Shown: positions 38,342-55,585 of the stretch, in pieces
Layout: every line of letters starts with the position of its first letter
Numbering within the stretch: the first letter of the stretch is position 1
From: Mycolicibacterium sp.
GTDB taxonomy: Bacteria; Actinomycetota; Actinomycetes; Mycobacteriales; Mycobacteriaceae
Direction: 5' to 3'
NCBI RefSeq assembly: GCF_016462545.1
Contig: NZ_JAEMTA010000001.1
Location: forward strand, 320,668-384,667
DNA: 64,000 nucleotides
Position numbers and translations under genes: made by a program
Notes under the pieces: model-generated
Databases searched by the model: none
What the model was told of the DNA's origin: nothing
Seen by the model: only the letters and a program-made list of their open reading frames with translations

Positions 38342-38728
38342 TCAGGCGACGAGCTCCTCGTGCAAGGCGGCTCGCTCCTCGGCCGTCCACGGGCGCGAAC
38401 CGGACCTTTCCTCGTCCAGGACCACTTGAACGGTACGCACCGTGGCGCAACGCTGAGTCGCCGTCGAGATGACGCTGACCGTGGTGAACGACGACGTACC
38501 GATCTTCTCGACGGCCGACGTGACCTCGACGCGATCGTCCAGAAGCACGGGATGGTGATAGTCGATCCCGTTGTGCACGACGACGATGTGACTCCAGGCG
38601 GTGGGAATGATGCGGTGCAGCAGCCGATTTCGTGCCTCTTCTGCATAGACCAGGAAGACGCTGTTGTTCACGTGCCCGGCAGGGTCGAGGTCAGTCCAGC
38701 GAGGCTCGATCTGAAGCGGTGCGATCAC
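38342..38728 (-). CDS. Hotdog-fold acyl-CoA thioesterase (4HBT type)
   Basis: RWTDLDPAGHVNNSVFLVYAEEARNRLL. Confidence 0.85.
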   Translation of the reverse strand: MIAPLQIEPRWTDLDPAGHVNNSVFLVYAEEARNRLLHRIIPTAWSHIVVVHNGIDYHHPVLLDDRVEVTSAVEKIGTSSFTTVSVISTATQRCATVRTVQVVLDEERSGSRPWTAEERAALHEELVA

Positions 38729-38737
38729 CCAGCGATC

Positions 38738-38748
38738 ATACGATGTAA
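38738..38748. promoter_or_regulatory. Recurring TAC-N3-GTA operator-like site
   Basis: ATAC-GAT-GTAA between divergent thioesterase genes. Confidence 0.45.
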
Positions 38749-38847
38749 AGCTGTTCCGACGCAGACCCTTCGAGTTTCGGGTAGTACCGCTCCAGGCATC
38801 TGCGACTCATGTCGTACAGTTGGCCGACAACGGATCTAGGGGAGTTG

Positions 38848-39696
38848 ATGGCAGCTTCGGTCGATGTCTTGCTCCAACTCCTCGACGTTGCCCCCGACGG
38901 ACCGAATAGCTACTGCGGCAGTGCATCCGGCGGAGGACATACTCGCCTGTTCGGCGGTCACGTCGCCGGTCAGGCGTTGGCTGCCGCCGCGCACACCGTG
39001 ACCAACGGCGTGCCGCACTCGATGCACTCGTACTTTCTGCGGCCGGGCAGCCCCGACCTGCCCATCCGCTACGAGGTGGAGCGCGTCCGTGACGGCCGCT
39101 CGTTCGCCAGCCGCCGCGTCGTCGCCCTGCAAGACGGTCGGCACCTCTTCTCGCTGCAGGCGTCGTTCCACCAGGCCGAGGACGGACCCGCTCATCAGTA
39201 CCTCGCGCCAACTGCGCCCCAGCCGGACGACTGCGAGGTCATTCCCACGACCCCCGGCACACGGGAGTCGGAGTGGCCCGTGCTCTACGAGCAGTGGGGC
39301 TCGCTGGACTTGAGATACGCCTCGCCTGCCGTCATCGGCGGAGCGAACACGACGACCGGACACCCGTCGCACACTCAGGTGTGGATGCGCACGACCGCTG
39401 CTGTCGACCGGCCGCAAGCCGAGCACAGTTGCATCCTGGCCTGCATATCCGATCTAACGCTGCTGTCCGCAGCGATTGCGCCACATGGCAACTCCGTGTC
39501 ACACGCGGGGTTCGCGACCGCGTCACTCGACCATTGCCTGTGGTTTCACCGCCCGTTCCGGATGGACGAGTGGATGTTGTACGACCAGATCTCACCGACC
39601 GCATCGCAGGGCCGCGGCATGGCGCGAGGCGAGATCTTCCAGCACGGGCATCACGTCGCCACCGTGATGCAGGAGGGATCGATCCGACGCGTGTAG
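38848..39696 (+). CDS. Acyl-CoA thioesterase II (TesB-like)
   Basis: RLFGGHVAGQALAAAAHTV...PHSMHSYFLRPG; DHCLWFHRPFR; ATG 38848 (MAASVDVLLQLLDV) preferred over track start 38809. Confidence 0.9.
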   Translation: MAASVDVLLQLLDVAPDGPNSYCGSASGGGHTRLFGGHVAGQALAAAAHTVTNGVPHSMHSYFLRPGSPDLPIRYEVERVRDGRSFASRRVVALQDGRHLFSLQASFHQAEDGPAHQYLAPTAPQPDDCEVIPTTPGTRESEWPVLYEQWGSLDLRYASPAVIGGANTTTGHPSHTQVWMRTTAAVDRPQAEHSCILACISDLTLLSAAIAPHGNSVSHAGFATASLDHCLWFHRPFRMDEWMLYDQISPTASQGRGMARGEIFQHGHHVATVMQEGSIRRV

Positions 39697-39702
39697 TGGC
39701 CG

Positions 39703-40161
39703 TCAGAAGCCCACGCGAGTGATGGTCTCGGCGACGACGGCGGGCTTGGGCTGGTCCTCGATTTCCAGGGTCTGCTTGACCACCATCTGAATCGAGCCAT
39801 CGCCGAGGACGTCGGCGCTCTGCAGCGACGATCGCAGTCGAACCCGCGAACCCACGGGTACCGGCGCGGGGAACCGGACCTTGTTCGATCCGTAGTTGAT
39901 GCCGAGCTTGGCATTGGCGACCGTGTAGATCTGCCAGCCGAGCATCGGCAGCAGCGACAGGCTCAAGTAGCCATGGGCGATGGGCCCACCGAACGGCGAC
40001 TCCCGCGTCGCGCGCTCCGGGTCGACGTGGATCCACTGGTGATCACCGGTGGCCTCGGCGAACTGATTCACCCGTTCCTGAGTGACGGTCACCCAGTCAC
40101 TTACTCCGAGATCTTCGCCCACTGCCGCGGTGATGTCTTCTGGCGAGCTAAATGTCCGCAC
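39703..40161 (-). CDS. MaoC-like (R)-specific enoyl-CoA hydratase
   Basis: FAEATGDHQWIHVDPERA...FGGPIAHGYLSLSLL. Confidence 0.9.
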   Translation of the reverse strand: MRTFSSPEDITAAVGEDLGVSDWVTVTQERVNQFAEATGDHQWIHVDPERATRESPFGGPIAHGYLSLSLLPMLGWQIYTVANAKLGINYGSNKVRFPAPVPVGSRVRLRSSLQSADVLGDGSIQMVVKQTLEIEDQPKPAVVAETITRVGF

Positions 40162-40196
40162 GGAATTGCTCCTCTGGTCGGTGTACGACTCTGAAG

Positions 40197-41282
40197 CTAG
40201 GCCAGATCGCCTGCGAGGTCCAACAATACGGCCGACAGATTCTTGCCCCACCGGTCCAGCGCATAGCCCGATGCGGGATAGCCATTGGTGAGGAACGCAA
40301 AGCTGATGCCCGTCACCGGATCGCAGAACGACTGCTGGCACGGCGCCCCGCCGTGGCCGAAGGTCTCCGGTGAGCCGGTGGCGGGCATCCACCCCTGCTG
40401 CCACGATTCACCGCGCACGGTGACGAACAACCCCATCGAGATCGGGTGGTCTGTGCCGCCGTGCTCGAGTGGACCGTAGGCAGGTTCGCGATAGCGCTCG
40501 CGGATGCCTTCGGCGACCGCTTCTCGCGACCAGACGTCGGAATGCAGCATGCCCTGGTAGTGCCTGGCGACGTCGGCGGCGGTACCGACGATGCTGTGCG
40601 ACGGTTCTCCCCGCTCAAGCACTTCGGCTGACTCCAGGTACCACGGGCCCCACACGTCGAGTTCGTCCGCGCCGTCGCCGAGCAGCACCATCGGGGCGAC
40701 GTCGCCCTGCTCCTCGATCGGAACGGCATCCTGCACCGTCAGCCCGAGGGGAGTGGCAATGTGCTGTGCGAGGTAGTCCGGCAGCGACAGTCCGGTGACC
40801 GCTTCGACGATCTCCCAGACGACCCACCCCGTCGAGGTCAACGCGAACTGGATGTGACCGCGAGTCTGCGGGTCGGGCTGCCAGCGCGCCATGGCCTCCA
40901 GCCGGGACTGCCGGGTGCCCATCCGCTTGGCGCCCAACGGTGCGTACGCGAGGCCGGCCCGATGAGTGGCGACCTCCTCCAGGGTGATGCCGTCGCAGAA
41001 GCCAGGGATCCACGTCGACACCGGCGCGGTGATGTCGAGGGCGTTCTCGTCGACGACCTTCCACAGCACCCCGGCCACGAACGGCCGGCTCACCGACTGC
41101 AGTCGGTAGCGCGTCGACGGGTCGGCGTCCCCGAAGGTCTCGAAGCGGACCAGTTCACCGCCATGCCCGACGGCCACCTGCGCGCTGGGGAGACGGCCTT
41201 CGGCCACCTCGAGTGCGACGCGGTCGACCAGCATCGACAACTTGGTGTCGTCCAGGGTCAACGATCTCTGATCGGTACTCAT
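40197..41282 (-). CDS. Serine beta-lactamase/esterase-fold protein
   Basis: TRYRLQSVSRPFVAGVLWKVVDE...EVATHRAGLAYAPLG...MGLFVTVRG...GHGG. Confidence 0.85.
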   Translation of the reverse strand: MSTDQRSLTLDDTKLSMLVDRVALEVAEGRLPSAQVAVGHGGELVRFETFGDADPSTRYRLQSVSRPFVAGVLWKVVDENALDITAPVSTWIPGFCDGITLEEVATHRAGLAYAPLGAKRMGTRQSRLEAMARWQPDPQTRGHIQFALTSTGWVVWEIVEAVTGLSLPDYLAQHIATPLGLTVQDAVPIEEQGDVAPMVLLGDGADELDVWGPWYLESAEVLERGEPSHSIVGTAADVARHYQGMLHSDVWSREAVAEGIRERYREPAYGPLEHGGTDHPISMGLFVTVRGESWQQGWMPATGSPETFGHGGAPCQQSFCDPVTGISFAFLTNGYPASGYALDRWGKNLSAVLLDLAGDLA

Positions 41283-41326
41283 GTTTGACCCTTCGCTTCG
41301 TGACACCTAATGTCTTACCGATCGAA

Positions 41327-41340
41327 CTATACGTGTATAG
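41327..41340. promoter_or_regulatory. TAC-N2-GTA palindrome, candidate operator
   Basis: CTATAC-GT-GTATAG (perfect 6-bp arms) between divergent genes. Confidence 0.6.
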
Positions 41341-41374
41341 ATGATCTGTCGGGCCAAAAGGAGTGGAGGCGCAC

Positions 41375-41794
41375 GTGGCATCAGCGCAGCAGGTACCGGT
41401 GGCCGAGAGGCTCTTCACGTGGCCGTCGGACGAGCCGCGGTTGATCGCCTCGGAACGCGACGGCGTGATCTCGTTCCCGGCGCAACCCGGTGACCCCGAG
41501 CGACTGCTCGGCACGCGAGGCACGTTGTGGGCGTTCACGACTCAGCAATTCCGACCGCCGTCACCACCGTATGACGGCAACGACACCGCGGAGAGCTTCG
41601 AGCCGTACGCGCTCGGCTACGTCGAACTGCCGGGCGAACTGCTGATCCAGGCGCGCTTCACCGAGAACGATCCGGCCAAGCTGATCATCGGTCAGGAAAT
41701 GGAGCTGCGCATCGTGCCCTACACCACCCGCGAGGACGGCACCGAGGTGCTGACGTACGCGTTCGCACCAGTGACAGCGGAGGTCTCTCAGTGA
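41375..41794 (+). CDS. DUF35 OB-fold acyl-CoA-associated protein lacking zinc-ribbon cysteines
   Basis: ESFEPYALGYVELPGELLIQARFTENDPAKLIIGQEMELRIVPY; precedes thiolase with GTGA overlap. Confidence 0.8.
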   Translation: MASAQQVPVAERLFTWPSDEPRLIASERDGVISFPAQPGDPERLLGTRGTLWAFTTQQFRPPSPPYDGNDTAESFEPYALGYVELPGELLIQARFTENDPAKLIIGQEMELRIVPYTTREDGTEVLTYAFAPVTAEVSQ

Positions 41795-42939
41795 GTAACG
41801 ACGTAGCGATCATCGGCACCGGGCTGCACCCGTTCGGCCGGCACGGCGACAAGACCGCCCTGGCCATGGGCGCCGACGCCGCCAAGGATGCGCTGGCGGA
41901 CGCCGGTATCGAATGGCCCTCGGTGCAAACCGCCTTCGTCGGTAGCTACGAGGTGTCCAATCCCGACGCGATCGTGGGTTGGCTTGGGCTGACGGGCATT
42001 CCGGTCCGCGGCGTCTTCAACGGGTGTGCCACCGGCGGCACGTCGCTGCAGATGGCGGCCGCGGCGATCCGCAACGGTGAGGCCGACATTGCGATGGCGA
42101 TGGGCTTCGACAAGCATCCGCGCGGCGCCTTCGCCGCCGACCCGTCGGTGGTTGGCCTCCCGTCCTGGTACGGCCAGACCGGGCTCTTCCTCACCACGCA
42201 CTTCTTCGGCACGAAGATCAACCGCTACATGGGATTACACGGTATCTCCGCCGAGACCCTCGCCAAGATCGCCGCCAAGAACCTACACAACGGGTCCATC
42301 ACCCCACATGCCTGGCGTCGCAAGCCCGCTTCGGTGGAGTCGATCCTCAACGACCTGGTGGTCAACTATCCGTTGACCCGGTCGATGTACTGCGGCCCGG
42401 ACGAGGGGGCGGCCGCGCTGGTCCTGTGCCGCGGCGATCTGGCCAGCAAGTACACCAATAGCCCGGTCTTCGTGAAGGCGGCTGAACTGCGCAGCCGCCG
42501 CCGCGGTGCCTTCGAACTCCAAAGCCCCTCGCTGCCACTGGACACCGCGCCCAGCCCGACCGTCGATGCGTCGCGCGCGGCCTACGAGACGGCGGGTATT
42601 GGTCCGGAAGACGTCGACGTGGCCCAGCTGCAGGACACCGATGCCGGTTCGGAGCTGATTCACATGGCCGAGAACGGATTCTGCGCCGACGGCGAGCAGG
42701 AACAGTGGATCGCCGACGGCGCCACCGAGATCGGCGGACGGTTGCCGGTGAACACCGACGGGGGCCTGATCGCCAACGGCGAGCCGATAGGAGCCTCCGG
42801 GTTGCGGCAGATCAGGGAACTCGTCCTGCAGTTGCAAGGGCGGGCGGGTGATCGCCAGGTGGGCAATGATCCGCGGGTCGGGTACGCCCACCTCTATGGA
42901 GCGCCCGGTGCGTCAGCGGTGTCGATCCTCAGCCGCTAG
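41791..42939 (+). CDS. Thiolase-fold / lipid-transfer (Ltp2-like) protein
   Basis: FNGCATGGTSL retained; C-terminal GGLIANGEPIGASGLRQIRELVLQLQG. Confidence 0.88.
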   Translation: MSNDVAIIGTGLHPFGRHGDKTALAMGADAAKDALADAGIEWPSVQTAFVGSYEVSNPDAIVGWLGLTGIPVRGVFNGCATGGTSLQMAAAAIRNGEADIAMAMGFDKHPRGAFAADPSVVGLPSWYGQTGLFLTTHFFGTKINRYMGLHGISAETLAKIAAKNLHNGSITPHAWRRKPASVESILNDLVVNYPLTRSMYCGPDEGAAALVLCRGDLASKYTNSPVFVKAAELRSRRRGAFELQSPSLPLDTAPSPTVDASRAAYETAGIGPEDVDVAQLQDTDAGSELIHMAENGFCADGEQEQWIADGATEIGGRLPVNTDGGLIANGEPIGASGLRQIRELVLQLQGRAGDRQVGNDPRVGYAHLYGAPGASAVSILSR

Positions 42940-43505
42940 TGGTGGATGGGTAGCGAGGTCAGATCCGTCGTGTCGACCCCGGCCCAGAACGACGACCACG
43001 TCGGTGCGACGGGGAGGTTGGCCGGTCCCGCCGGAGGGCTCCATCCGTTCATGCCGACTTCTTGCGGGTGCTCGACGAGATCCGCAGCGTACCAGTGCAT
43101 CTCCTTGCGGCGAGCGAACAGCCACTGGCCGTGCACCTTTCGGTATTCGTCGTCATAGCGGATGGCCATCGTCACCCAGCGCCCACCAACCTCGTGCTCG
43201 GCACGGCAATAGACGTTGCCGGTCGCAGAGCCGCCGTCGACGAGGTCGATGCGGTGTCCCACGATCTGATGAATCGATCGGTAGAACTGCCGTAGCTGTG
43301 GGGTGATGGCCTCGCGCAATATTTCTCGGCCGTTCTCATTCCGCCCGACTCGGACGTCGGGAACGAATAAATCCAACCAACCATCGACGTCGCGCGAGTC
43401 GACGGCCATGGCGTACCGGATGGGTAGCTGCTGGATCGCCAGGGTGTCCTCGATCCGCTGGATTCGGTGAACGAGGTCCTCCGAGGCGTGCAGCTGTTCG
43501 ACCAT
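42936..43505 (-). CDS. SnoaL-like (NTF2-fold) protein
   Basis: IEDTLAIQQLPIRYAMAVDSRDVDGWLDLFVPDVRV...RHWVTMAIRYDDEYRKVHGQWLFARRK pattern. Confidence 0.85.
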   Translation of the reverse strand: MVEQLHASEDLVHRIQRIEDTLAIQQLPIRYAMAVDSRDVDGWLDLFVPDVRVGRNENGREILREAITPQLRQFYRSIHQIVGHRIDLVDGGSATGNVYCRAEHEVGGRWVTMAIRYDDEYRKVHGQWLFARRKEMHWYAADLVEHPQEVGMNGWSPPAGPANLPVAPTWSSFWAGVDTTDLTSLPIHH

Positions 43506-43507
43506 CT

Positions 43508-44260
43508 CTACGCCCCGCCCGTCAACATGACGGTCTGGCCCGTCATGTACGACAGGTCATCGGACACCAGCGATACGACGGCGCGTCCGATGTCGGACTC
43601 GGGATCACCCATGCGGCGCAACGGAATCCGATCGACTTGTTTCTGGTAGGCCTCGGGACGGGCGTCGCGGAAGGCTTCGGCACTGGGGGACAGGGCGCTG
43701 GGCACGACCACGTTGACGCGAATCCCGTCCCGACCCCATTCCCGGGCTGCTACTCGGGACAGCCCGCGGATCGCCTCCTTCGCCATGGCGTAGGAGCCGA
43801 AGGTCGCGTTGCCTTCGATCGCCGTACTGGAGCCGAAGTTGACGATCGACCCTCCGCCGCGTGCGACGAGATGCGGGTAGGCGGCCTGCATTCCGTAGAA
43901 GGTCGCCAAGGTGCCCGTACGGTAGCTCAGCTCCAGGTCGGCATCGGTGGTGTCGACGAGCAATTTTTGGACGGCCGACTGTGCATTGTTGACTAGTGCA
44001 TCCAGTCCGCCGAATTCCGAGACTGCAGCGCTTATGGCCGCGTCCACGTCATCGCGTAGGGCGACGTCGCACCGAATGGCGGTCGCCGTGCCTCCAAGCT
44101 CGGTGACCTCGTGGGCAACGGCTTCGCACTTTGACAGCGTCCGGCCGGCCAGCAGGAGGCTGGCGCCCTCCCTTGCCAAGGCCAGTGCGATCCCGCGTCC
44201 GACGCCTTGGCCGGCGCCGGTGACGACTGCGACCCGCCCCGCCAACCTGTTACCTAGCAC
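43508..44260 (-). CDS. SDR family oxidoreductase
   Basis: LAGRVAVVTGAGQGVGRGIALALAREGA...YAMAKEAIRGLSRVAAREWG; GTG at 44260 preceded by GGGAGG preferred over 44305. Confidence 0.9.
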   Translation of the reverse strand: MLGNRLAGRVAVVTGAGQGVGRGIALALAREGASLLLAGRTLSKCEAVAHEVTELGGTATAIRCDVALRDDVDAAISAAVSEFGGLDALVNNAQSAVQKLLVDTTDADLELSYRTGTLATFYGMQAAYPHLVARGGGSIVNFGSSTAIEGNATFGSYAMAKEAIRGLSRVAAREWGRDGIRVNVVVPSALSPSAEAFRDARPEAYQKQVDRIPLRRMGDPESDIGRAVVSLVSDDLSYMTGQTVMLTGGA

Positions 44261-44311
44261 GACTGCCTCCCGCAATGTGGACGATGTGGAACCCGCCTCA
44301 TCCACGCTATC

Positions 44312-44322
44312 TTACGGCGTAA
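44312..44322. promoter_or_regulatory. Recurring TAC-N3-GTA operator-like site
   Basis: TTAC-GGC-GTAA upstream of the SDR gene, downstream of TetR. Confidence 0.55.
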
Positions 44323-44418
44323 AATCGAGAGTACATTCCAGGGGAATCGAGGCGTCGGCAGTCACACATACGCGTGCAATCGCCTGCAGTGGAGGGCGTT
44401 TCGGCGCGGAGCTCGAGG

Positions 44419-45060
44419 CTAGCCTCCGCCGGCAGTCAGTCGCACTCGGAGTCCGTCGATGATGGTGTCCACGCCGAAGCTGAAGAAGTCGCGACCGCCG
44501 AGTCCGGGAATGAGCGGCATGAGGCGTGCGAGCGTGTCGTCCATCTCCTCGGGCTCCTCCCAGTCTGCGCGCATCACCACCTGATAGCGCCCGAACAGGT
44601 ACGTATGAATCATCGCGTAGCCCAGCACGACGTCCTTGTCGGAGAATCCCGCGTCGAGCAGGATCGCCATGATGCCGTGGATGAGCCGTCTGTCCGTGCT
44701 CTGCATGCGTGCAAAGAGGATCTCTGCGATTCCGGGGTGCTGCCGCAACCGGGCATCGATGGCCTCGACGACCGCGCGGAGGCGGTCTTCCCAGGAACCG
44801 GATTCGGCTGCGGGCAGCTCTACTTCCGAAAGCACTTCGCGGGCAACGAGATCCAGCAGCTGCTGCTTGTCGGCGACGTACCAGTACGGGGCCATGGCGG
44901 ACCGCCCGAGTTCTCGGGACAGCCGTCGCATCGACAGCGCCTCGAGCCCTTCACTACGAATGACCTCGAGTGCCGCGTCGACGATCTCCTTCTCGGTCAG
45001 GTTCGGCGGTTTTCCGCGCTTGGCCGGCGTCGACGGGGAGGTCGCCGCGCTGCGAGGCAT
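44419..45060 (-). CDS. TetR family regulator
   Basis: LTEKEIVDAALEVIRSEGLEALSMRRLSRELGRSAMAPYWYVADKQQLLDLV. Confidence 0.93.
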   Translation of the reverse strand: MPRSAATSPSTPAKRGKPPNLTEKEIVDAALEVIRSEGLEALSMRRLSRELGRSAMAPYWYVADKQQLLDLVAREVLSEVELPAAESGSWEDRLRAVVEAIDARLRQHPGIAEILFARMQSTDRRLIHGIMAILLDAGFSDKDVVLGYAMIHTYLFGRYQVVMRADWEEPEEMDDTLARLMPLIPGLGGRDFFSFGVDTIIDGLRVRLTAGGG

Positions 45061-45131
45061 GGTCGGGCTCCGTTTCGTCGCGCGTGAGTCAGGGGGCTCA
45101 TCGTAGCGCGGCGTCAGCGTCAGATCGGGGC

Positions 45132-46451
45132 TTAGATCCCGAGGCGTTCGAGTAGGCGCTCGTGCGACAGTGCGGGACCGCCGAATAGCAGGCTCCCCGA
45201 CAGCGCCCTACGGAGGATGGCATCGGTCTCATCCGAGGGGCCTAGGAGCTCCGCGGCGGCGGTGGCCGCTCGCAGGGCCGCGGCGGAGCAGCCGACATGA
45301 GCGGCCGCCGCGGCAGCAGAGGCGTGCGCAGAGCCCGCGGCATCCTCGGCCAGGGCGCGGCGCCATAGCGCTGCGGCAGCCATGTGGTCCAGCGTCACCC
45401 CGGCAACTCTGAACTCCGAGGCCGGGGCGTCGGGCAGATCGGCGGACTGCTGGGAGAGCAAGGTCATCGCCCTTTCGATCAAGCCCACCTGTTCGGCAGC
45501 GAGAGCCGTGGTGGCGAGATCGATTGCCCTCAGCATCAACCGCCCCCCGGCGCCCTCGGTGCCCAGAAGGGTCGCGGGCGTGCCCGAGAGCTCGATCTGT
45601 GCCAGTGGCCTGGTTGGATCGATCACGTCCAGGGGGGTGACGGTCAGTCCCGGTGCTGAACCCTCGGTTGCGAACAACGATGGTCCCGCCGTCGACCGCG
45701 CGATCACCAGGTAGACGTCGGCGTCCTCGGTGGCGGGGACGAACTGCTTGACGCCGGTGAGCTGCCAGCCCTCGGCGGTCTCGGCAGCGCGGGTCTTGAC
45801 CATCGCCGGGTCCCAGGACCCCGTCTGCTCGGCCGCTGCCAGCGTGGCCGAAAGTCGGCCCGAAACAAGGGCTTCCGCGTATTCGCCGGCAACCGTCGAC
45901 TCACCGATCACGGCTCGAAGCGTCTGCCAAGCCAGCCCGATGTTTCCGAAGAAGGGTGAGTCGCTCAATGAGTGGCCGTATCCGCGCATGGCCCGACCCA
46001 GGCCGTCTGCGCCGTCGGTGGCCACCAGACCCAACCACTCGGTCTCGGCAGGGTAGTCGACCTCACGGGTGTGTTCGGTGACGTACTCCGATGCCGTTGC
46101 GCGGACGTCCGCGAACGAGCTGGCCGCGGTGCGATCGAATCGGGCGGGATCGACCGCGTCGGCGAGGAAGCCGGAGCGGAGCGGATTACCGGTGTCTGCG
46201 ACGAGTTTCGGTCCCAATACGGTGGCGACGAAACGCGCCGCCGACGAGTGAGCGCGTGCTCTTAGCGTGTCGATCCGCGCGGCGTTCCGATCCGGTGGCG
46301 CCGCACGGACGGCGCCGAGCTCGACCAGCAGGATGGCCAGATCGCGACGAAGGGCCCGGTCGTCCCAGGTCCAGGTGGACCGCATCAGAGCGGACAACGT
46401 GTCGGCCGTCAGCAGCTCGTCGAATGCGACCTGCGTGGTTGGAGAGTTCAT
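45132..46451 (-). CDS. Acyl-CoA dehydrogenase family protein
   Basis: SLSDSPFFGNIGLAWQTLRAVIG...GWQLTGVKQFVPATEDADVYLVIARS; FadE-like layout. Confidence 0.78.
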   Translation of the reverse strand: MNSPTTQVAFDELLTADTLSALMRSTWTWDDRALRRDLAILLVELGAVRAAPPDRNAARIDTLRARAHSSAARFVATVLGPKLVADTGNPLRSGFLADAVDPARFDRTAASSFADVRATASEYVTEHTREVDYPAETEWLGLVATDGADGLGRAMRGYGHSLSDSPFFGNIGLAWQTLRAVIGESTVAGEYAEALVSGRLSATLAAAEQTGSWDPAMVKTRAAETAEGWQLTGVKQFVPATEDADVYLVIARSTAGPSLFATEGSAPGLTVTPLDVIDPTRPLAQIELSGTPATLLGTEGAGGRLMLRAIDLATTALAAEQVGLIERAMTLLSQQSADLPDAPASEFRVAGVTLDHMAAAALWRRALAEDAAGSAHASAAAAAAHVGCSAAALRAATAAAELLGPSDETDAILRRALSGSLLFGGPALSHERLLERLGI

Positions 46452-46517
46452 CGCCGGGACCTCCTCGGTGTCATGTGTAGCGCCACGGTTCGCTGAACCC
46501 GTGTACGTGCCTCAACG

Positions 46518-46528
46518 TTACAGTGTAA
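46518..46528. promoter_or_regulatory. Recurring TAC-N3-GTA operator-like site
   Basis: TTAC-AGT-GTAA in divergent ACAD/amidohydrolase promoter. Confidence 0.55.
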
Positions 46529-46582
46529 ACTCGTAAGCCAAGCCCCGTGGCAGGGGACCTCTCACTCGAAGGAGGGCCGACC

Positions 46583-47722
46583 GTGACGCAAGCTCAGGAA
46601 CGCCGCACCGATGCCGGTACGTCCGCCGCAGAACAGAAGAAGATCTGGGCGCACTCAGGCGATTCGCACGCCATGGAACCCGAGGATCTCTGGACGTCCC
46701 GGTTGCCGAAGAACCTGGCGGATCGAGCGCCCCGCACGGAGCGCGGCGAGAAGTACGAGTTGATCTTCGTCGACGGCAAGCAGAAGAGTCGCCAGCTCAA
46801 CGACTTCATGGACGCGATGCGTCCGCCCGGCTTCAAGGACCTCGCGATTCGACTCCAAGACCTCGATCAGGAGGGGGTCTGGAGTCAGTTGGCGTTCCCC
46901 TCGACCGGATTCTGGATGTGCGACATCGAGGACCCAATCTTGTCGCAGGCCTGCAACCGGGCCTGGAACGAGTGGGCCATCGACGATCTGATGGCCAAGC
47001 AGGACCGCATCTTCACACCTGCCTGCGTTCCCCTCGTCGATCCGAAGGATGCCGCGGCCGAGTTGGAATGGGCTGCCGGCCGCGGCTTCCAGTCGATCTT
47101 CCTGCCCTGCACCATGCCCGCCAACAAGGACTGGGGGCTCGACATCTGGGAGCCGCTGTGGGCAGCCGCCGCGGAGTGCAACATGAGGTTGGCCTTCCAC
47201 ATCGGCACCGGTGGCGAGACCGTCGTCTACCGCGGCCCGGGTGGCGCGGTAGTGAACTACATGGAGACGACCTACCCGGGCATGCGTGTCGTGACCCATC
47301 TGGTGGCCAGTGGTGCATTGGACCGCTATCCCGAGCTGAAGGTACTGATTGCCGAGGGTGGCGCGGGATGGGTTCCCGCAGTGGGCGATCGGATGGACGA
47401 GGCGTATCGCCAGCACGGCATGTTCGTGCGGCCCCGGCTGAGCAGGCTGCCCAGCGAGATCGTCCGCAGCCAGGTCTACGCGTCGTTCCAGCACGACGTC
47501 AGCGCCGTACAGATCATCGAGGACACCGGCTACGACAACGTGCTGTGGGGTGACGACTACCCGCACCTCGAGGGTACGTACGGCCACACGCAGCAGACGC
47601 TGCACGACCTGTTCGACCACGTCGACCCCCGCATCCAGGACCGGGTGTTGCGCGGCACCTTCGAGGAACTCTTCACGGTGCCGACCATGGCCGACGACAA
47701 GAGGGTCGATCTCAACCGGTAA
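46583..47722 (+). CDS. Amidohydrolase family protein (ACMSD-like TIM barrel)
   Basis: WAHSGDSHAMEPEDLW, LAFHIGTGGE, VLIAEGGAGWVPAVGDRMDE, NVLWGDDYPHLEGTYGHT; GTG 46583 after GGAGGG. Confidence 0.88.
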   Translation: MTQAQERRTDAGTSAAEQKKIWAHSGDSHAMEPEDLWTSRLPKNLADRAPRTERGEKYELIFVDGKQKSRQLNDFMDAMRPPGFKDLAIRLQDLDQEGVWSQLAFPSTGFWMCDIEDPILSQACNRAWNEWAIDDLMAKQDRIFTPACVPLVDPKDAAAELEWAAGRGFQSIFLPCTMPANKDWGLDIWEPLWAAAAECNMRLAFHIGTGGETVVYRGPGGAVVNYMETTYPGMRVVTHLVASGALDRYPELKVLIAEGGAGWVPAVGDRMDEAYRQHGMFVRPRLSRLPSEIVRSQVYASFQHDVSAVQIIEDTGYDNVLWGDDYPHLEGTYGHTQQTLHDLFDHVDPRIQDRVLRGTFEELFTVPTMADDKRVDLNR

Positions 47723-47749
47723 CCCGTTCAACGCCTTCGGGCCGGTGCC

Positions 47750-47788
47750 ACTCTGGCGACGCAAACGTGAAGTTTGCGTCGCCAGAGT
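47750..47788. terminator. Long perfect hairpin downstream of amidohydrolase gene
   Basis: ACTCTGGCGACGCAAAC-gtgaa-GTTTGCGTCGCCAGAGT: 17-bp perfect stem, 5-nt loop. Confidence 0.7.
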
Positions 47789-47849
47789 CATTTTCGCGTC
47801 ACTAGAAGTCGCGGATAGTGCTTGACCATCAAGATGAACAACGTTTACT

Positions 47850-47860
47850 ATACGGCGTAT
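47850..47860. promoter_or_regulatory. Recurring TAC-N3-GTA operator-like site overlapping TetR start codon
   Basis: ATAC-GGC-GTAT, perfect 4-bp arms, ATG of the next gene at 47859. Confidence 0.55.
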
Positions 47861-48455
47861 GGCTGGACGACCGAAAGTGCGCGACGAGCGCCTCGATGAG
47901 GCCGCGATCGTCAGCGCCGCCCTGAATATTGCGCAGCGCGATATGGCCGCCCTGACGATGCGGTCGGTCAGCGACGAGCTTCACGTCTCCGTGGGGGCGT
48001 TGTACAAGCACGTGGCCGGCCGTGAGGCCTTGATCGGGTTGGTCGTCGAGAAGATCCTGAGCCAGGCGCCGCCCGTCTCGCCCGAGGTAGGCGACGGATG
48101 GTTGGCACTGAGGGCACAGGTCCTCGGCCTCCAAGCGCTCGTCGATCTGTACCCCGGGCTGGACCAGATCGTCATCGAGCATTCGCCAAACTCACCAACT
48201 GCCAACGAACTTCGCCGCGAAGGCATCGCGGCGCTGCAAGCGGAGGGGCTCACCCTCGAGGAGGCGGTGGGCGTATATCGCGCTGTCACGTACCTCTGGT
48301 TGGGCGCCCGGGTCGCAGTTCGAGGACGGGCCCGCAACGACGCCGACATCGACACCTTCGCCTTGGCGCTCGACGTACTCCTCGCTGGTCTCAAAGAGCA
48401 CATTGCCGAAGGTCGGGACAACGTCGCCGCAACGATGAAAGAGGTAGGACCATGA
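47859..48455 (+). CDS. TetR family regulator
   Basis: LDEAAIVSAALNIAQRDMAALTMRSVSDELHVSVGALYKHVAGREALIGLV. Confidence 0.93.
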   Translation: MAGRPKVRDERLDEAAIVSAALNIAQRDMAALTMRSVSDELHVSVGALYKHVAGREALIGLVVEKILSQAPPVSPEVGDGWLALRAQVLGLQALVDLYPGLDQIVIEHSPNSPTANELRREGIAALQAEGLTLEEAVGVYRAVTYLWLGARVAVRGRARNDADIDTFALALDVLLAGLKEHIAEGRDNVAATMKEVGP

Positions 48456-48556
48456 ATTCTCGAATGGCCGGTGTCATCGGCTTCTTCATCCTCGCGGGCC
48501 TGTGGGCAGCCACGATCCTGACGATTCAAGCCATGCAAACCCTCAACCACGGATAG
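48452..48556 (+). CDS. 34-aa single-TM membrane microprotein
   Basis: MNSRMAGVIGFFILAGLWAATILTIQAMQTLNHG*; ATGA overlap with TetR stop. Lies inside the longer track ORF 48098..48556, whose upstream part is a shadow of TetR. Confidence 0.65.
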   Translation: MNSRMAGVIGFFILAGLWAATILTIQAMQTLNHG

Positions 48557-48565
48557 GGGCAGATC

Positions 48566-48814
48566 GTGCACGATGTACTCATCCTGACCGGGATGGTGGT
48601 CGCCGACATCGCGATTCTCGCGGCGTGGTGGTTCCTGGGCAGCCGCCTCGTACCCGCTGAGCAGGCGCCGGCGTCGGCCAACGCCGAGACCGAGCGAGGC
48701 GTGCCCTTGATGCACAAGATCCTGACCTACGTGTGCTTCTTCCTGCTCGCAGGTCTCATCATCGAATGCGTGGCAATGTTCCCGGCGATACTAGTGAGGT
48801 TCGGATGGTCATAA
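48566..48814 (+). CDS. 82-aa small membrane protein (two predicted TM)
   Basis: LILTGMVVADIAILAAWWFLGSRL and ILTYVCFFLLAGLIIECVAMFPAILV. Confidence 0.75.
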   Translation: MHDVLILTGMVVADIAILAAWWFLGSRLVPAEQAPASANAETERGVPLMHKILTYVCFFLLAGLIIECVAMFPAILVRFGWS

Positions 48815-49497
48815 GGGAACCAGCAAGCCAGGAAGCGTCGACACCCGTTGTCGTAGAAACGAAGTCGCGGTGGGTCGAGCCCGCCGATGGCTGGCTGGCC
48901 GCGGGCATCCTCAGCTGCGGAACCATGTTGCTCGGGCCCTTCGGGGCCATCCCGCTGATCATCGGACTGGTCAAGTTGTGGCGGTCGGTCAAGGCGGGCA
49001 CAAACGTCCGGCCATGGGCCGCCACCGTCATCGGCACGTTCTGCATGATCGACGGGATGATCAACTTCCTGCCATGGTCGTTGGACACCTTCGCGCACAA
49101 CACGGTGCTGGGCGAAACCTTCATCACCGGCTACGGGCGCTTCTTCGACGGCGCATTCTTCATCGACTACAACAGCTCCGCACTTGGCGGCGTCGCAGAC
49201 GATCAAGAGAAGATGTGGCAGTACCTGGCGGTGTTCATCCTGATGCCAATGCGCGTGGTGGCGGCGTGGGCATTCCTGCAGATGAAGACCTGGGGTCTGC
49301 ACTTCATGAAGATCTCCGGCTGGCTCTATCTGTTCCTCTGGGTCGGCTACACCATGGCCATGAGCCAGAACTTCTCCGAGCGGATGGCGACGTCCGAATT
49401 CGGCATGGGCTGGTGGTTGTTCAACCTCTTCTACCTGTCGCCGATGTTCGTCCTGCCCTACCTCTATACCGTCGACAAAACGAAGTGGAACCAGTGA
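48805..49497 (+). CDS. Multi-pass membrane protein of unknown function
   Basis: 230 aa, several hydrophobic segments; ATG 48805 overlaps previous gene by 10 nt. Confidence 0.8.
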   Translation: MVIREPASQEASTPVVVETKSRWVEPADGWLAAGILSCGTMLLGPFGAIPLIIGLVKLWRSVKAGTNVRPWAATVIGTFCMIDGMINFLPWSLDTFAHNTVLGETFITGYGRFFDGAFFIDYNSSALGGVADDQEKMWQYLAVFILMPMRVVAAWAFLQMKTWGLHFMKISGWLYLFLWVGYTMAMSQNFSERMATSEFGMGWWLFNLFYLSPMFVLPYLYTVDKTKWNQ

Positions 49498-49498
49498 T

Positions 49499-50386
49499 GT
49501 GACCACGCCCGTCCGAGGTTTGGGCGGCCGCGTCGCCCTGATCACCGGCGCCGGACGCGGGATCGGCGCCGCTCACGCTGTCGCGTTCGCCGCCGCCGGT
49601 GCGACCGTGGTGGTCAACGACACCGGGGTGGATCTCGACGGTGCTGACCCGGATCCCCTTGTCGCGGAGCGATTGGCCGCCTCGATTCGGGCCGCCGGTG
49701 GACACGCCCTCCCGGACGTGTCTGACGTCTCCGACTTCGCGGGGGCCGCGGCGGTGGTCCAGCGCGCCGTCGACGAATTCGGCCGGCTCGACATTCTGGT
49801 GAACAACGCCGGCATCATCAGCACGACAACGGATGTGGCAGCGCTCTCCGAGGCGGAGCTGCGGCGCACGCTGGACGTGCACGTGGTCGGCACCATCGGG
49901 ACCATCCGCGCCGCGTTCCCGATCATGGCCGCTCAGCGATATGGATGCATCATCAACACGACGTCCGAGGCGGCGCTGTCCACGAGCATGGCGACGGGGA
50001 TGGCCTACGCCGCCGCCAAGTCCTCGGTGTGGGGAATCACGATGGCCGCGGCGAGGCAGGGGGCAGAGTGCGGCATCACGGTCAATGCGCTCTCTCCCGG
50101 CGCACTGACCCGGATGTCGAAACCCTTCCTCGCAGAGGCAGGGATGCCCTCTGGCTTGGATCTCTCACCCGAACAGATCGCGCGTGTCGCCGTTGCACTG
50201 TGCAGCGCGGATTCTCGACACGTCACGGGCAAGGTCATTCACACGGCCGCAGGCTTCGTGCGCGAGTACGTCATGACCCGCGTTGATGATTCGGACTTGG
50301 TCAACGATGTAATGAGCCTGTTGGCGCAAGCCGAGATGAGAAGGACTGGCGCAACACCATATTTGGGCGTGCACTCGACGAGATGA
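49499..50386 (+). CDS. SDR family oxidoreductase
   Basis: VALITGAGRGIGAAHAVAFAAAGATVVVNDTGVDLDG (17beta-HSD4-like N-terminus); YAAAKSSVWGITMAAA. Confidence 0.9.
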   Translation: MTTPVRGLGGRVALITGAGRGIGAAHAVAFAAAGATVVVNDTGVDLDGADPDPLVAERLAASIRAAGGHALPDVSDVSDFAGAAAVVQRAVDEFGRLDILVNNAGIISTTTDVAALSEAELRRTLDVHVVGTIGTIRAAFPIMAAQRYGCIINTTSEAALSTSMATGMAYAAAKSSVWGITMAAARQGAECGITVNALSPGALTRMSKPFLAEAGMPSGLDLSPEQIARVAVALCSADSRHVTGKVIHTAAGFVREYVMTRVDDSDLVNDVMSLLAQAEMRRTGATPYLGVHSTR

Positions 50387-50432
50387 TCGCCGGTTTGCGT
50401 CAATCACTCACAACCGATCGAGGAGATCTTCC

Positions 50433-50894
50433 ATGAATGCCGACGATTGCTTCGCCGTCCAACAACTGGCGGTGATGTACGCCGACTGCGTGAGTCGGGG
50501 CGACGTTACCGCGGCGGTGCAGGTCTACGCGCCGGATGGCCGCCTCGAGACACCGACCACCGAACCGGCGGTCGGACGCGCCGCCATCGAGGCGACCATC
50601 TCGTCGACGGTGGCGACCCTCGAAATGGTCTTCCAAACGGTGCACGTCGGGCTCGTTCAGGTGGAAGGTGACCGTGCGCAGGCACGCACCCCCATCACGG
50701 AATGGGCACGCCGTGAACGGGACTCCCAACCCTTCCTCTTCCTCGGCTGGTATGAGGATGAGGCCGTGCGGCTGGCCGAGGGGTGGCGCTTCGCGCGTCG
50801 CAGGCTCATACCTCGGACGTTTGCCCGGCCCGACTTCCTCAACGGCGCGCTGCAACCGGTGGGCGCCTTGAATCTGGAGTTCGCGACCCGATGA
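50433..50894 (+). CDS. SnoaL-like (NTF2-fold) protein
   Basis: DDCFAVQQLAVMYADCVSRGDVTAAVQVYAPDGRLETPTTEPAVGRAAIEATI. Confidence 0.82.
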   Translation: MNADDCFAVQQLAVMYADCVSRGDVTAAVQVYAPDGRLETPTTEPAVGRAAIEATISSTVATLEMVFQTVHVGLVQVEGDRAQARTPITEWARRERDSQPFLFLGWYEDEAVRLAEGWRFARRRLIPRTFARPDFLNGALQPVGALNLEFATR

Positions 50895-51862
50895 AGGTCG
50901 GGCTGTACTTCGACCTCCGCAATCCGCCCGGTTGGCACCAGGAGTGGCAGCGACTGTACGGGTTCACCCTCGAAGTCTGCGAGGAAGCCGATCGTCTGGG
51001 GATCGGGTCGCTCTGGTTCTCCGAACATCACTTGTTCAGTGACGGGTACCTGAACCAGCCGCTGACGTTCGCGGCCGCGGCCGCTGCCCGCACCACGCAG
51101 ACACGGCTCGGCACCGCGGTGATGGTGGCCCCGATCCGTCGGGCCGCCCAGATCGCCGAGGAGGCAACGGTCGTCGACCTCGTCAGCGGCGGGCGACTGG
51201 ATCTGGGGCTGGGCACCGGCTACCGCAAACCGGAGTTCGACCTCTACGAGGAGTCGCTGATCGGTCGTTACGACCGCACCGACGCCAGGGTTCGCGAGAT
51301 GCGGGCGCTCTGGGCGTCTGGAACGCTCACGCCCCCGCCGGTGCAGGATTCGGTGCCGATCTGGCTCGGCTACCAGGGCCCCAAGGGTGCGCGCCGGGCC
51401 GGGGTGCTGGGTGAGGGTCTGCTGTCTGTCAACCGGGACCTGCTCGAGCCCTACCGGGAAGGGCTGATCGCCGGTGGCCACGACCCGGCGTCGGCGCGGA
51501 TGGCAGGTGCGCTGAGCGCGTTCGTGACCGACGATCCAGAGCGGGACTGGCCGATCGTCTCGAAACACGTCTCGTGGCAGGCAGACTCGTATCGCGCCCA
51601 CATGGTGGACGGTACCGATCAGCCGCCGCCGAAGCCGGTCGACGCGGAACGGATCCGAAGCAAGGGCCTGACAACTGGGTTTCATGGCCTTCTGGTCGAC
51701 ACTCCGCAGAATGTGGCGACGCAGGTGCGTGACGTCACCGAGGGTCTTCCCGTGGAGACGGTGTTCTTCTGGGTGTCCATCGCCGGAATGCCCGAGGAGA
51801 TGGTGATGCGCCACATGCAGATCATCTGTACCGACCTGGCCCCGCTGTTGGCGGACTCGTGA
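50891..51862 (+). CDS. LLM-class flavin/F420-dependent oxidoreductase
   Basis: MKVGLYFDLRNPPGW...GIGSLWFSEHHLFSDGYLNQPLTFAAAAAART...LVSGGRLDLGLGTGYRKPEF; ATGA overlap. Confidence 0.92.
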   Translation: MKVGLYFDLRNPPGWHQEWQRLYGFTLEVCEEADRLGIGSLWFSEHHLFSDGYLNQPLTFAAAAAARTTQTRLGTAVMVAPIRRAAQIAEEATVVDLVSGGRLDLGLGTGYRKPEFDLYEESLIGRYDRTDARVREMRALWASGTLTPPPVQDSVPIWLGYQGPKGARRAGVLGEGLLSVNRDLLEPYREGLIAGGHDPASARMAGALSAFVTDDPERDWPIVSKHVSWQADSYRAHMVDGTDQPPPKPVDAERIRSKGLTTGFHGLLVDTPQNVATQVRDVTEGLPVETVFFWVSIAGMPEEMVMRHMQIICTDLAPLLADS

Positions 51863-52800
51863 GTAAACGCGGATCGTTCGACTACCGCACTCTCGTCGGG
51901 GCCACCGACAGCCACTGGGGGCCGGGCGTCTATGAACGGCCGGTCATGGGATTGCCCGTTGCCGGCCAACACGTGTGGGGTGCGATCACGGTCGGCGACA
52001 AGCGATATCTGCTGATCAGGCACTTCATGAACGAGATGGCCGGGCGGTTCCTCACCTACGAGGCCACGATCGGCGAGGACATGACGTTCCGCAAGTCGCG
52101 GGGGTACAGCGGGTTGTGCGAACTCGGTGAGCTCGACGGGCAGTGGGGCATCTATCAACCAGGCGCGCCGCCGTCGTTCGTCTTCACGACCCAGGGCGAG
52201 CACGGTCGGTGGGTCGATGGCTCCGCCGACCTCCGATTGCGGCTGCACCCAACGGCGTTGCAATTCGTCACGCCCGACGCCGAGGAACCATTGGCGTACT
52301 TCGCGCGCGCCTTCGACGTGATCGGCGGCACCTTCGACGGGCAACCCGTCGACGCGGGTGTGGTGATGCAGGAGCAGGTCTACCTGAGTAGCGGCAAGGG
52401 CTGGATGCTCAGCCGACACAAGCGCGAACTGCAGGGCGCATGGGTCGCCTTCGCGAATCGCTATGCCGATGGTGGATTCGAGTTTGGCTCGGTGTGTGTG
52501 GGGACCAGGGGTTGGCAGTTCGGGGTGGTCATCACCTCCGACGGCGACCACGTGTTCGCAGACCGGCCGGCGGGCCGGGCCACCTCCGATGGCGAGGCGT
52601 TCACGGTTGAACTGGACTTCGCCGACGACGGAGTCTGGCGGTGGCGTCCACCCCTCGAAGGCGGAGGGCGCGTGCCACTTCCGGGTCCGCGGGAAACCAC
52701 TCCGCTGTGGGCCGAGGGGGTGTTCCAGCGCGACGACGATGACCGCGAACTGGTCTTCGCCCACACCTGGGCGGAGGTGTACCCACATCATCTCGACTGA
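51859..52800 (+). CDS. Conserved-looking protein of unknown function, beta-rich
   Basis: 313 aa; GTG overlaps LLM stop (GTGA); no family recognised with certainty. Confidence 0.8.
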   Translation: MSKRGSFDYRTLVGATDSHWGPGVYERPVMGLPVAGQHVWGAITVGDKRYLLIRHFMNEMAGRFLTYEATIGEDMTFRKSRGYSGLCELGELDGQWGIYQPGAPPSFVFTTQGEHGRWVDGSADLRLRLHPTALQFVTPDAEEPLAYFARAFDVIGGTFDGQPVDAGVVMQEQVYLSSGKGWMLSRHKRELQGAWVAFANRYADGGFEFGSVCVGTRGWQFGVVITSDGDHVFADRPAGRATSDGEAFTVELDFADDGVWRWRPPLEGGGRVPLPGPRETTPLWAEGVFQRDDDDRELVFAHTWAEVYPHHLD

Positions 52801-52874
52801 CTCCGCGCCGAAAGTCCGCTTGTTGACGGCCTACTCGGGCGATGTGCACGACGACCGTGCTTTCGGCGGCGGGT

Positions 52875-54017
52875 CTAGAAGCCCATCTTGCGGCCGATCA
52901 GGTCGCGCATGATTTCGCTGGTGCCGCCGTAGATGCGTTGAACGCGGGCGTCCCGCCACAGCCTGGCGATCTCGTACTCGTTGATGTAGCCGTAGCCGCC
53001 GTGCAGTTGCAGGCAGCGGTCGATGATCTGCCACTGCTGCTCGGTGGTCCACAGCTTGGCGCCGGCCGCCTCTTCGGCCGTCAACGTGCCTGCGTTGACG
53101 CCCGCGATGCAGCGGTCGACGTAGACCTGCATCACGTCGAGCAGCACGCTCATGTCGGCGATGGCGTGACGATTGACCTGGAACGTGCCGATCGGTTGGC
53201 CGAAGGCCTTGCGGTCCAATGCGTATGCCTTCGTCAACTCGAGCGCGCGTCGGGCCTGGGCGACCGCGTGGATGGCGATGCCGAGGCGTTCGGCCGGCAG
53301 GTTGCGCATCAGGTGATAGAAGCCACGGTTCTCCTCTCCGATGAGATTGGCGACTGGCACGCGGACGTCGGTGTAGGACAGCTCGGCGGTGTCCGCCGAG
53401 CGGACACCTATCTTGTCGAGCTTGCGCCCCTTGACGAATCCCGGGGCATCGGCCTCGACGGCGATCAGGCTGACGCCCTTGTGGCCCGCGCTCGGGTCGG
53501 TCTTCACCGCCGTCACCACCAGGTCTGCCAGGATCCCGCTGCTGATGAAGGTCTTGGCGCCGTTGATGACGTAGTCGTCGCCGTCGCGGACGGCGGTCGT
53601 CGTGATGCCCGCCAGATCGGATCCCGCACCGGGCTCCGACATGGCCACCGCGGTGATGAGCTCACCTGAGACGAACCCGGGGAGCCAACGCTCCTTCTGT
53701 TCGTCGGTGGTCATGTGCACCAAATACGAAGCCATGATGTCGTTTTGGAGGCCGAAACCCACGCCGGCGCTGCCCGTGGCGTAGTACTCCTCGTTCATGA
53801 TGGCGTTGAACCGGAAGTCGGTGATGCCTTGGCCGCCGAACTCCTCCGGTGCTTCCCAGCCGAGCAGGCCGGTTTCACCTGCCTTCAGCCACACCGAGCG
53901 GTCGGTGAGTCCGGCGCGTTCCCACTCGTCGGTGTGCGGCGCGACCTCTTTCTCGTAGAAGGCCCGGGCGGTGGCCCGGAATTCGTCGTGCTCGGACTCG
54001 AAGATGTCGCGCTTCAT
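52875..54017 (-). CDS. Acyl-CoA dehydrogenase, LCAD-like
   Basis: AMSEPGAGSDLAGITTTAVRDGDDYVINGAKTFISSG; LPAERLGIA; RIYGGTSEIMRDLIGRKMGF. Confidence 0.95.
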   Translation of the reverse strand: MKRDIFESEHDEFRATARAFYEKEVAPHTDEWERAGLTDRSVWLKAGETGLLGWEAPEEFGGQGITDFRFNAIMNEEYYATGSAGVGFGLQNDIMASYLVHMTTDEQKERWLPGFVSGELITAVAMSEPGAGSDLAGITTTAVRDGDDYVINGAKTFISSGILADLVVTAVKTDPSAGHKGVSLIAVEADAPGFVKGRKLDKIGVRSADTAELSYTDVRVPVANLIGEENRGFYHLMRNLPAERLGIAIHAVAQARRALELTKAYALDRKAFGQPIGTFQVNRHAIADMSVLLDVMQVYVDRCIAGVNAGTLTAEEAAGAKLWTTEQQWQIIDRCLQLHGGYGYINEYEIARLWRDARVQRIYGGTSEIMRDLIGRKMGF

Positions 54018-54057
54018 TTCCACTTCCTTCGTCAAAGCGGTCGGGACTTGCCTACCG

Positions 54058-54066
54058 TACAGCGTA
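54058..54066. promoter_or_regulatory. Recurring TAC-N3-GTA operator-like site
   Basis: TAC-AGC-GTA (context CCGTACAGCGTATAG) in divergent ACAD/thioesterase promoter. Confidence 0.45.
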
Positions 54067-54122
54067 TAGTTTCGATTCCACAGTGGGCGAACGAGCTGCC
54101 TCTACGACTGACGGGCGACGAA

Positions 54123-54659
54123 ATGGCGCAGGACGACACGGCTTCCGATCTACTCGCCTGGATCGGGTCGGATTCGGTGGGACGGCCGATGAGCGACGGC
54201 GGCGTCACGTTGTGCGGCTCGTGCCGGGCATCGCGCGACTGCCGCCTGGGAGTGACTCGCGAGTGGCTCCAGGACGACGACGTATCGCACTTCGAGGTCA
54301 CCTGCCCGCGCGATCAGGAGGGTGGCCCCAACGTCGCGCACGGAGGTTGGACGGCTGGCGTGATGGACGAGATGCTGGGCCACGTTCCGCTGTTGCACGA
54401 CCAGATGACTGTGACCGCGACGTTGACCGTCAACTTCAAGAAGCCGGTGCCCGTCGAGCGGCCATTGGTCGCCCGTGCGTGGATAGACAAGATCGAGGGT
54501 TCGAAGTGGTTCATCTCGGGTGAGCTGCTGCTTCTGCCGACGCGGAGCGTGCTGGCGACGGCGACCGGCATCTGGATCGCCAGGGATCCTTCGCATTTCG
54601 CGCGTCACGAGAAATGGCTCGCCGAGCAAGACGCCGTTCGTGTGGGCGAAGGGGAGTGA
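54123..54659 (+). CDS. PaaI-type hotdog thioesterase
   Basis: GPNVAHGGWTAGVMDEMLGHV...VTATLTVNFKKPVPVERPLVARAWI. Confidence 0.85.
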   Translation: MAQDDTASDLLAWIGSDSVGRPMSDGGVTLCGSCRASRDCRLGVTREWLQDDDVSHFEVTCPRDQEGGPNVAHGGWTAGVMDEMLGHVPLLHDQMTVTATLTVNFKKPVPVERPLVARAWIDKIEGSKWFISGELLLLPTRSVLATATGIWIARDPSHFARHEKWLAEQDAVRVGEGE

Positions 54660-54661
54660 GC

Positions 54662-55477
54662 ATGGGTCTCTTGGACGGCAGGGTCGCCTTCATCACCGGT
54701 GCCGCCCGCGGGCAGGGACGCAGTCACGCCGTACGCCTGGCGCGCGAGGGTGCCTCGATCATCGCCATCGACGTCGCCGCCGACGTGTCGCCGGACAACG
54801 GCTATCCGCCGGCGACGCGAGCCGACCTCGACGAGACCGTCGCCCTGGTGCAGGCCGAGGGTCGGGAGATCCTCGCCCGTGTGGTGGACGTCCGCGACTC
54901 GGACGGGATGAACGCCATCCTGGCCCGGGGGGCCGCGACGTTCGGTCGCCTCGACGTGGTGGTCGCCAATGCGGGCATCGTGAGCTGGGGACGGTTCTGG
55001 GAGATGTCCGACGACCAGTGGCAGACGCTGATCGACGTCAACCTGACCGGGGTGTGGCGCACGATGAAGGCGGCTGCGCCGTACATGATCGATGCGGGAA
55101 ACGGCGGATCGATCATCGCGATCAGTTCGGTATCGGGCATCAAGTCACTGCCCGGGCAGGCGCACTACAGCGCGGCCAAACACGGGGTGGTGGGACTGAC
55201 GAAGACCGCCGCGATCGAACTCGGCGAGTACGGAATACGGGTGAATTCGATCCATCCGTGGGGCGTCGCCACTCCCATGGCCGCCGAGGACGCGAACATG
55301 GCGAAGCTGTGCACCGACCATCCCAACTACGGCATGTCCTTCGCCAGTGCGCTGCCCGGACTTCCGCTAGCCGAACCGGACGACATCTCCGATGGCGTCG
55401 TCTACCTGGCTTCGGACCTGTCTCGGGCAGTGACGGGCACGCAGCTCACGATCGACATGGGGGCCACAAAGGTCTGA
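54662..55477 (+). CDS. Mycofactocin-coupled-type SDR oxidoreductase
   Basis: MGLLDGRVAFITGAARGQGRSHAVRLAREGASIIAIDVAAD; HYSAAKHGVVGLTKTAAIELGEYGIRVNSIHPWGV. Confidence 0.88.
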   Translation: MGLLDGRVAFITGAARGQGRSHAVRLAREGASIIAIDVAADVSPDNGYPPATRADLDETVALVQAEGREILARVVDVRDSDGMNAILARGAATFGRLDVVVANAGIVSWGRFWEMSDDQWQTLIDVNLTGVWRTMKAAAPYMIDAGNGGSIIAISSVSGIKSLPGQAHYSAAKHGVVGLTKTAAIELGEYGIRVNSIHPWGVATPMAAEDANMAKLCTDHPNYGMSFASALPGLPLAEPDDISDGVVYLASDLSRAVTGTQLTIDMGATKV

Positions 55478-55537: not shown

Positions 55538-55550
55538 TTTACACGTACAG
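55538..55550. promoter_or_regulatory. TAC-N2-GTA operator-like site upstream of P450
   Basis: TTTAC-AC-GTACAG; reverse complement CTGTACGTGTAAA matches the 41327 and 61733 sites. Confidence 0.45.
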
Positions 55551-55585
55551 TGTCGGTCGTCACAGCCCGTTGGGAGTAGGTAGTC

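Follow-up and report, generated by a model that had tools for sequence, protein, structure and literature searches.

A TetR-type regulon with a conserved palindromic operator in a catabolic island of Mycolicibacterium, with TetR_44419 as its most likely regulator

Five TAC-N3-GTA palindromes in the window, the 64,000-nucleotide stretch of Mycolicibacterium sp. DNA analysed here, were confirmed as real control sites common to one gene set. Comparison of sequences indicates a TetR regulon that is real and ordinary in kind, with TetR_44419, a TetR-family protein encoded in the same stretch, as most likely regulator. We consider it highly probable that the five sites are operators of a single, autoregulated regulon, which a TetR_44419 dimer would bind and repress.

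The operators and their promoters

All five sites were found with the coordinates and letters that an earlier note on this DNA had reported. Its description of all of them as intergenic holds for four, whereas the 47850 site reaches two bases into the TetR ORF. The operators (unstranded), -10-like hexamers and genes are the following:

38342..38728, minus: 4HBT-type thioesterase, regulon gene (Pfam)
38740-38735: -10-like TATGAT of the leftward gene, under the 38738 operator; GTG start 38728 would be leaderless
38738..38748: operator ATACGATGTAA between divergent thioesterases; 14.4 bits, rank 3-4 in the window
38848..39696, plus: TesB-type acyl-CoA thioesterase, possible regulon gene (TIGR00189)
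43508..44305, minus: SDR oxidoreductase, regulon gene (NCBIfam)
44314-44309: -10-like TAAGAT under the 44312 operator
44312..44322: operator TTACGGCGTAA upstream of SDR 43508; 20.0 bits, rank 2
44419..45060, minus: TetR_44419, MftR2-like TetR-family protein, proposed regulon repressor (NF038211, 231.6 bits)
45132..46451, minus: ACAD-like protein (NCBIfam) at the head of the ACAD-TetR_44419 operon; 72 bp separate its gene from that of the TetR
46518..46528: operator TTACAGTGTAA between the divergent ACAD-TetR_44419 operon and PtmU3-like gene; 27.5 bits, rank 1
46526-46531, plus, and 46520-46515, minus: -10-like TAAACT and TAACGT under the 46518 operator
46583..47722, plus: Amidohydro_2 protein, PtmU3 relative (Pfam PF04909)
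47834..47848, unstranded: palindrome ATGAACAACGTTTAC, proposed own operator of TetR_47859, conserved before orthologs
47850..47860: operator ATACGGCGTAT between -10 TACTAT (47846-47851) and the TetR_47859 start codon; 14.4 bits
47859..48455, plus: TetR_47859, second TetR-family protein, proposed target and local autoregulator (Pfam TetR_N)
52875..54020, minus: acyl-CoA dehydrogenase, regulon gene (NCBIfam)
54057..54067: operator GTACAGCGTAT between divergent ACAD 52875 and thioesterase 54123 with SDR 54662; 13.4 bits, rank 5
54065-54070, plus, and 54059-54054, minus: -10-like TATAGT and TACGGT under the 54057 operator
54123..55477, plus: 4HBT thioesterase and mycofactocin-coupled SDR (54662), regulon operon (Pfam 4HBT; TIGR03971)
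55545..55555, unstranded: GTACAGTGTCG, weak, possibly decayed operator before P450 gene 55586, below the 25 best matches listed

The bit scores of the operators come from a symmetric 25-bp matrix, built from the islands of seven genomes that carry TetR_44419 and lack TetR_47859. Every WTACRSYGTAW was taken, which gave 25 sites, with six of these genomes contributing (G121, G247, G270, G293, G307 and G312) and the window contributing none; these sites were picked by their core, so that the independent test lies in the flanks and spacer only. The five best matches in the window are the five reported sites (27.5, 20.0, 14.4, 14.4 and 13.4 bits), against a mean maximum of 8.8 bits in simulated windows scored with the same matrix, and it is the flanks and spacer that push four unrelated TACN3GTA matches down to background. 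The full operator is wider than the core first noted and reads ACNTTAC-RSY-GTAANGT, often flanked farther outward by TC/GA; positions -8 (A) and -7 (C) are conserved together with their mirror images, and the RSY spacer is mostly AST.

TACN3GTA occurs nine times in the window against 1.22 expected, about seven times the shuffled expectation, and nine were reached in none of 100 shuffles. Of 13 occurrences of WTACN3GTAW in the 6.25-Mb genome, seven fall inside these 64 kb (binomial 2e-11). The strict form WTACRSYGTAW is found three times genome-wide, each time in a promoter of this window. For DTACRSYGTAH the count is 11, with four in the window; the seven elsewhere all lie within ORFs and score at most 8.5 bits each. 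These genome-wide tests are pattern matches, the full matrix having been applied to the window and the islands. Choosing these five among the nine was right, since the other four (22235, 23287, 31632 and 42236) score at most 4.5 or fall outside the 25 best matches listed; we therefore rejected membership of every TACN3GTA in the regulon. Two of them, 22235 and 23287, belong to a GntR/FCD neighbourhood, where a different palindrome pair, TTACTCAGTAA and TTACTTAGTAA (22234-22244 and 23286-23296), lies upstream of the GntR/FCD regulator (21424-22209) and in the promoter region from which genes for a luciferase-like monooxygenase and a KshA-like Rieske oxygenase diverge, and probably forms a separate small GntR regulon.

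In the window and related islands, 76 of the 77 sites with at least 12 bits are intergenic or at the 5' end of a gene, as placed by a simple gene caller; the lone exception, in the ACAD/amidohydrolase promoter of G293, is probably a false ORF call. TANNNT overlaps all 80 distinct sites, in 75 of them on both strands, compared with 7% for control positions in the flanks; this overlap follows partly from the TAC core itself. Such a position over -10-like hexamers fits repression by promoter cover, with activation as the alternative. For genes 38342 and 47859, leaderless transcripts are suggested by a start codon 6-7 nt past the -10-like hexamer. The SDR start at 44305 is doubtful, and GTG 44260, with GGGAGG upstream, is the more likely one.

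The strongest operator, at 46518, is kept between the same genes in G079, G182, G169, G225, G293, G413 and G318, and also in Rhodococcus. The sites at 38738 and 54057 are of middle strength, the latter being kept in G079 and G182. Before homologs of P450 gene 55586, a good operator is present in G169, G225, G293, G270 and others. The promoter of the OB-fold/thiolase pair 41375/41791 holds a palindrome of 14 bp without mismatch, its spacer two bases long, CTATACGTGTATAG (41328-41341; TAC-N2-GTA at 41331), and at its place the homologous pair of G413 has a normal operator, TTACGCTGTAA.

The choice of regulator

TetR_44419 has an N-terminal helix-turn-helix and a TetR-type C-terminal domain, which place it in the TetR family, and is similar over its full length to TetR class B/D structures (phmmer, residues 21-210, E about 1e-14). 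An operator precedes the ACAD-TetR_44419 operon and four further promoters, the pattern of an autoregulated multi-promoter system. Orthologs occur in 15 of 396 genomes of the genus, and those of TetR_47859 in seven, all within the 15. TTACASTGTAA is present in 21 genomes, comprising 14 of the 15 with TetR_44419 and seven of the 381 without it, which have one copy each (Fisher 8e-20, uncorrected for relatedness). The exception, G315, carries GTACAGTGTAC between its TetR and amidohydrolase genes. Sites adjoin most TetR_44419 genes or precede their operons, though gene order varies; around the G312 ortholog a strong site is absent from the surrounding 20 kb, and the sites of this genome lie about 40 kb away. 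Two genomes without TetR_44419 (L096 2006 and L099 2006) have a single motif in the form of a longer palindrome, TGTGATTACAGTGTAATTCACAC, next to an acyl-CoA dehydrogenase homolog; an unrelated regulator may bind there.

The same arrangement was identified outside the genus. Plasmid NZ_CP050953.1 of Rhodococcus sp. DMU1 encodes an ortholog with 57% identity, again paired with an ACAD and opposite an amidohydrolase gene. Within 40 kb, where this TetR is the sole annotated transcription regulator, the three best sites score 31.0, 27.5 and 26.1 bits and the next 8.4; one lies in the ACAD-TetR/amidohydrolase gap, and the other two precede a thiolase gene and a second amidohydrolase gene. G621, from another genus of the window's family, has a 56% ortholog with the same arrangement and operator. 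What was computed directly is the motif with its conservation and promoter position, and its association with TetR_44419. Co-occurrence alone cannot name the binder, as island genes besides the regulator also track the motif; taking the sequence comparisons together, TetR_44419, and not TetR_47859, probably reads the sites.

The second TetR protein differs from TetR_44419 in its recognition helix and has a palindrome of its own, GAAC-N3-GTTTAC before six orthologs and GTAAAC-N3-GTTTAC in G318, while a paralog in G182 has the perfect palindrome CATCATGAAC-AGT-GTTCATGATG. The window version is ATGAAC-N3-GTTTAC, and RTGAACN3GTTYAY occurs once in the genome, exactly at 47834-47848. We propose this palindrome as the operator of TetR_47859 itself, which, given its different recognition helix and own palindrome, looks like a regulated gene and local autoregulator. 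With this separate operator, the TAC site between -10 and start codon would make TetR_47859 a target of TetR_44419, and we infer a nested arrangement of one over the other. A wider contig search gave one named ortholog of TetR_47859, from Mycolicibacterium hodleri. Two membrane-type proteins (48566-48814 and 48805-49497, the longer with no Pfam or NCBIfam match) are encoded after TetR_47859, with homologs following in most orthologous loci, and are probably under its control.

The earlier note had proposed a locus-wide regulon, which is strongly supported by the conserved operators, their promoter position and their tendency to occur together with one regulator in different species and genera. 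It had listed TetR_47859 first as regulator and TetR_44419 as the other choice; the comparison clearly favours the latter and speaks against the former, since the motif tracks TetR_44419 with or without TetR_47859. Regulation of the five sites by TetR_47859, with the start-codon site as its autoregulatory operator, would agree with retention of the 47850 site before six of its seven orthologs and with TTACASTGTAA in all seven genomes that encode it. However, the motif also occurs without TetR_47859, in seven of the eight TetR_44419-only genomes (up to seven copies, in G270) and at the Rhodococcus loci, and both the G318 ortholog, where the 47850 operator is lost, and the G182 paralog are without the TAC site and keep the other palindrome, which makes this reading very improbable.

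Regulators can act at a distance, and the binding of TetR_44419 is a prediction, so a third, unlinked regulator was also weighed; we judge it unlikely, because the motif accompanies TetR_44419 and the island onto plasmids and to another genus and is nearly absent in relatives without them. That the motif is a mere promoter element or chance repeat is scarcely credible: its outer half-site does read TANNNT, the mycobacterial -10 pattern, mostly on both strands, but a general promoter element would be found genome-wide rather than confined in its strict form to this window, and the spacer and symmetry are conserved across genomes.

In the mechanism that we favour, with TetR_44419 as repressor, its dimer on the palindrome would block RNA polymerase by covering the -10 element, on both strands in divergent promoters. 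Since the TetR_44419 gene lies behind ACAD_45132 on one strand, the 46518 operator would also place the repressor under its own control. The inducer would be an intermediate of the pathway, perhaps a derivative of a terpenoid- or steroid-like substrate such as an acyl-CoA; it would free TetR_44419, and the thioesterases, SDRs, ACADs, TetR_47859 and the PtmU3-like oxygenase would be switched on together. That the protein binds, that it represses and does not activate, and what its inducer and substrate are, we infer from the computed pattern.

Comparison with known regulators

KstR and KstR2 are TetR repressors of mycobacterial cholesterol catabolism with many palindromic operators, including their own. 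TetR_44419 would share their working mode across a lipid-catabolic locus, in a different island, and their operator sequences would differ from the one described here. The nearest named family is MftR2 (NF038211, the TetR-family 'mycofactocin system transcriptional regulator'), but TetR_44419 scores 231.6 bits (231.3 in a second run) against a cut-off of 285, which leaves it outside, at about 50% identity to members over the cut-off. Both are linked to mycofactocin, MftR2 by its family name and the TetR_44419 regulon by the mycofactocin-coupled SDR. The recognition-helix region reads GRSAMAPYWYV in TetR_44419 and GVSPMAPYYYV in MftR2.

The operator is absent at MftR2-clade loci (relatives at 46-52% identity) in Rhodococcus-type genomes; we considered these relatives as carriers of the same operator and ruled them out, a conserved TTATGGTGTGA in front of several of them being a faint echo of it. 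Before MftR2-clade regulators we noticed a conserved TGACGTTATGGTGTG(A/T), two positions off the operator (L130 10614, L131 10645, L132 10686 and L134 10544), which may be the site of that clade.

MftR of the mft cluster, a TetR-family repressor with a palindromic operator and release by acyl-CoA (PMC8728441), resembles TetR_44419 in family, palindromic operator and mycofactocin link. However, its operator, T-N2-GGCA-N5-TGCC-N2-A (PMC8728441), is unlike the one here, and it controls cofactor biosynthesis, whereas the TetR_44419 regulon is a catabolic island. Near-identical core letters, GTTACNNNGTAAC and NTTTACANTGTAAAN, are found in matS (MatP) and the ParB sites of V. cholerae chromosome II (PMC8669397; PMC7022226). 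Those serve proteobacterial chromosome organisation, while the sites here are few, in promoters and in one island, and the likeness is a sequence coincidence. Searches of the literature for the operator letters and MftR2 gave nothing relevant, and the regulon is undescribed in the papers found. Whether an undescribed MftR2-like TetR clade, distinguished by its recognition helix and its operator, governs a mobile catabolic regulon of terpenoid type across Mycobacterium and Rhodococcus, and controls a second TetR with an adjacent operator in a nested two-repressor switch, we see as evenly balanced.

The catabolic island

PtmU3 has its role in diterpenoid chemistry. It is one of the amidohydrolase-related dinuclear oxygenases (PMC10811679), and the 'amidohydrolase' encoded at 46583 is similar to it over the full length (6omp, residues 19-369, 443 bits), with a weaker match to DitZ; protein 46583 is likely such an oxygenase and a close PtmU3 relative. 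The island also encodes a P450, acyl-CoA ligases, thiolase/OB-fold pairs, ACADs and a mycofactocin-coupled SDR (54662; TIGR03971, 366 bits, above the cut-off of 300). Together with the PtmU3-like gene, these families suggest a polycyclic terpenoid- or steroid-like acid as the likely substrate. One version of the island lies on the 864-kb plasmid pJCM12687 of M. branderi, and the island is mobile and horizontally spread.

The analysis gives a testable operator and a named candidate regulator for an island spread in environmental mycobacteria and Rhodococcus, partly on plasmids. The operator makes it possible to map the regulon in any genome, and pathway genes can be found by their promoters despite scrambled gene order. 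The analysis also places a PtmU3-like oxygenase, a P450 and a mycofactocin-coupled dehydrogenase in a single pathway, and it offers an inducible switch, the ligand of which would reveal the substrate.
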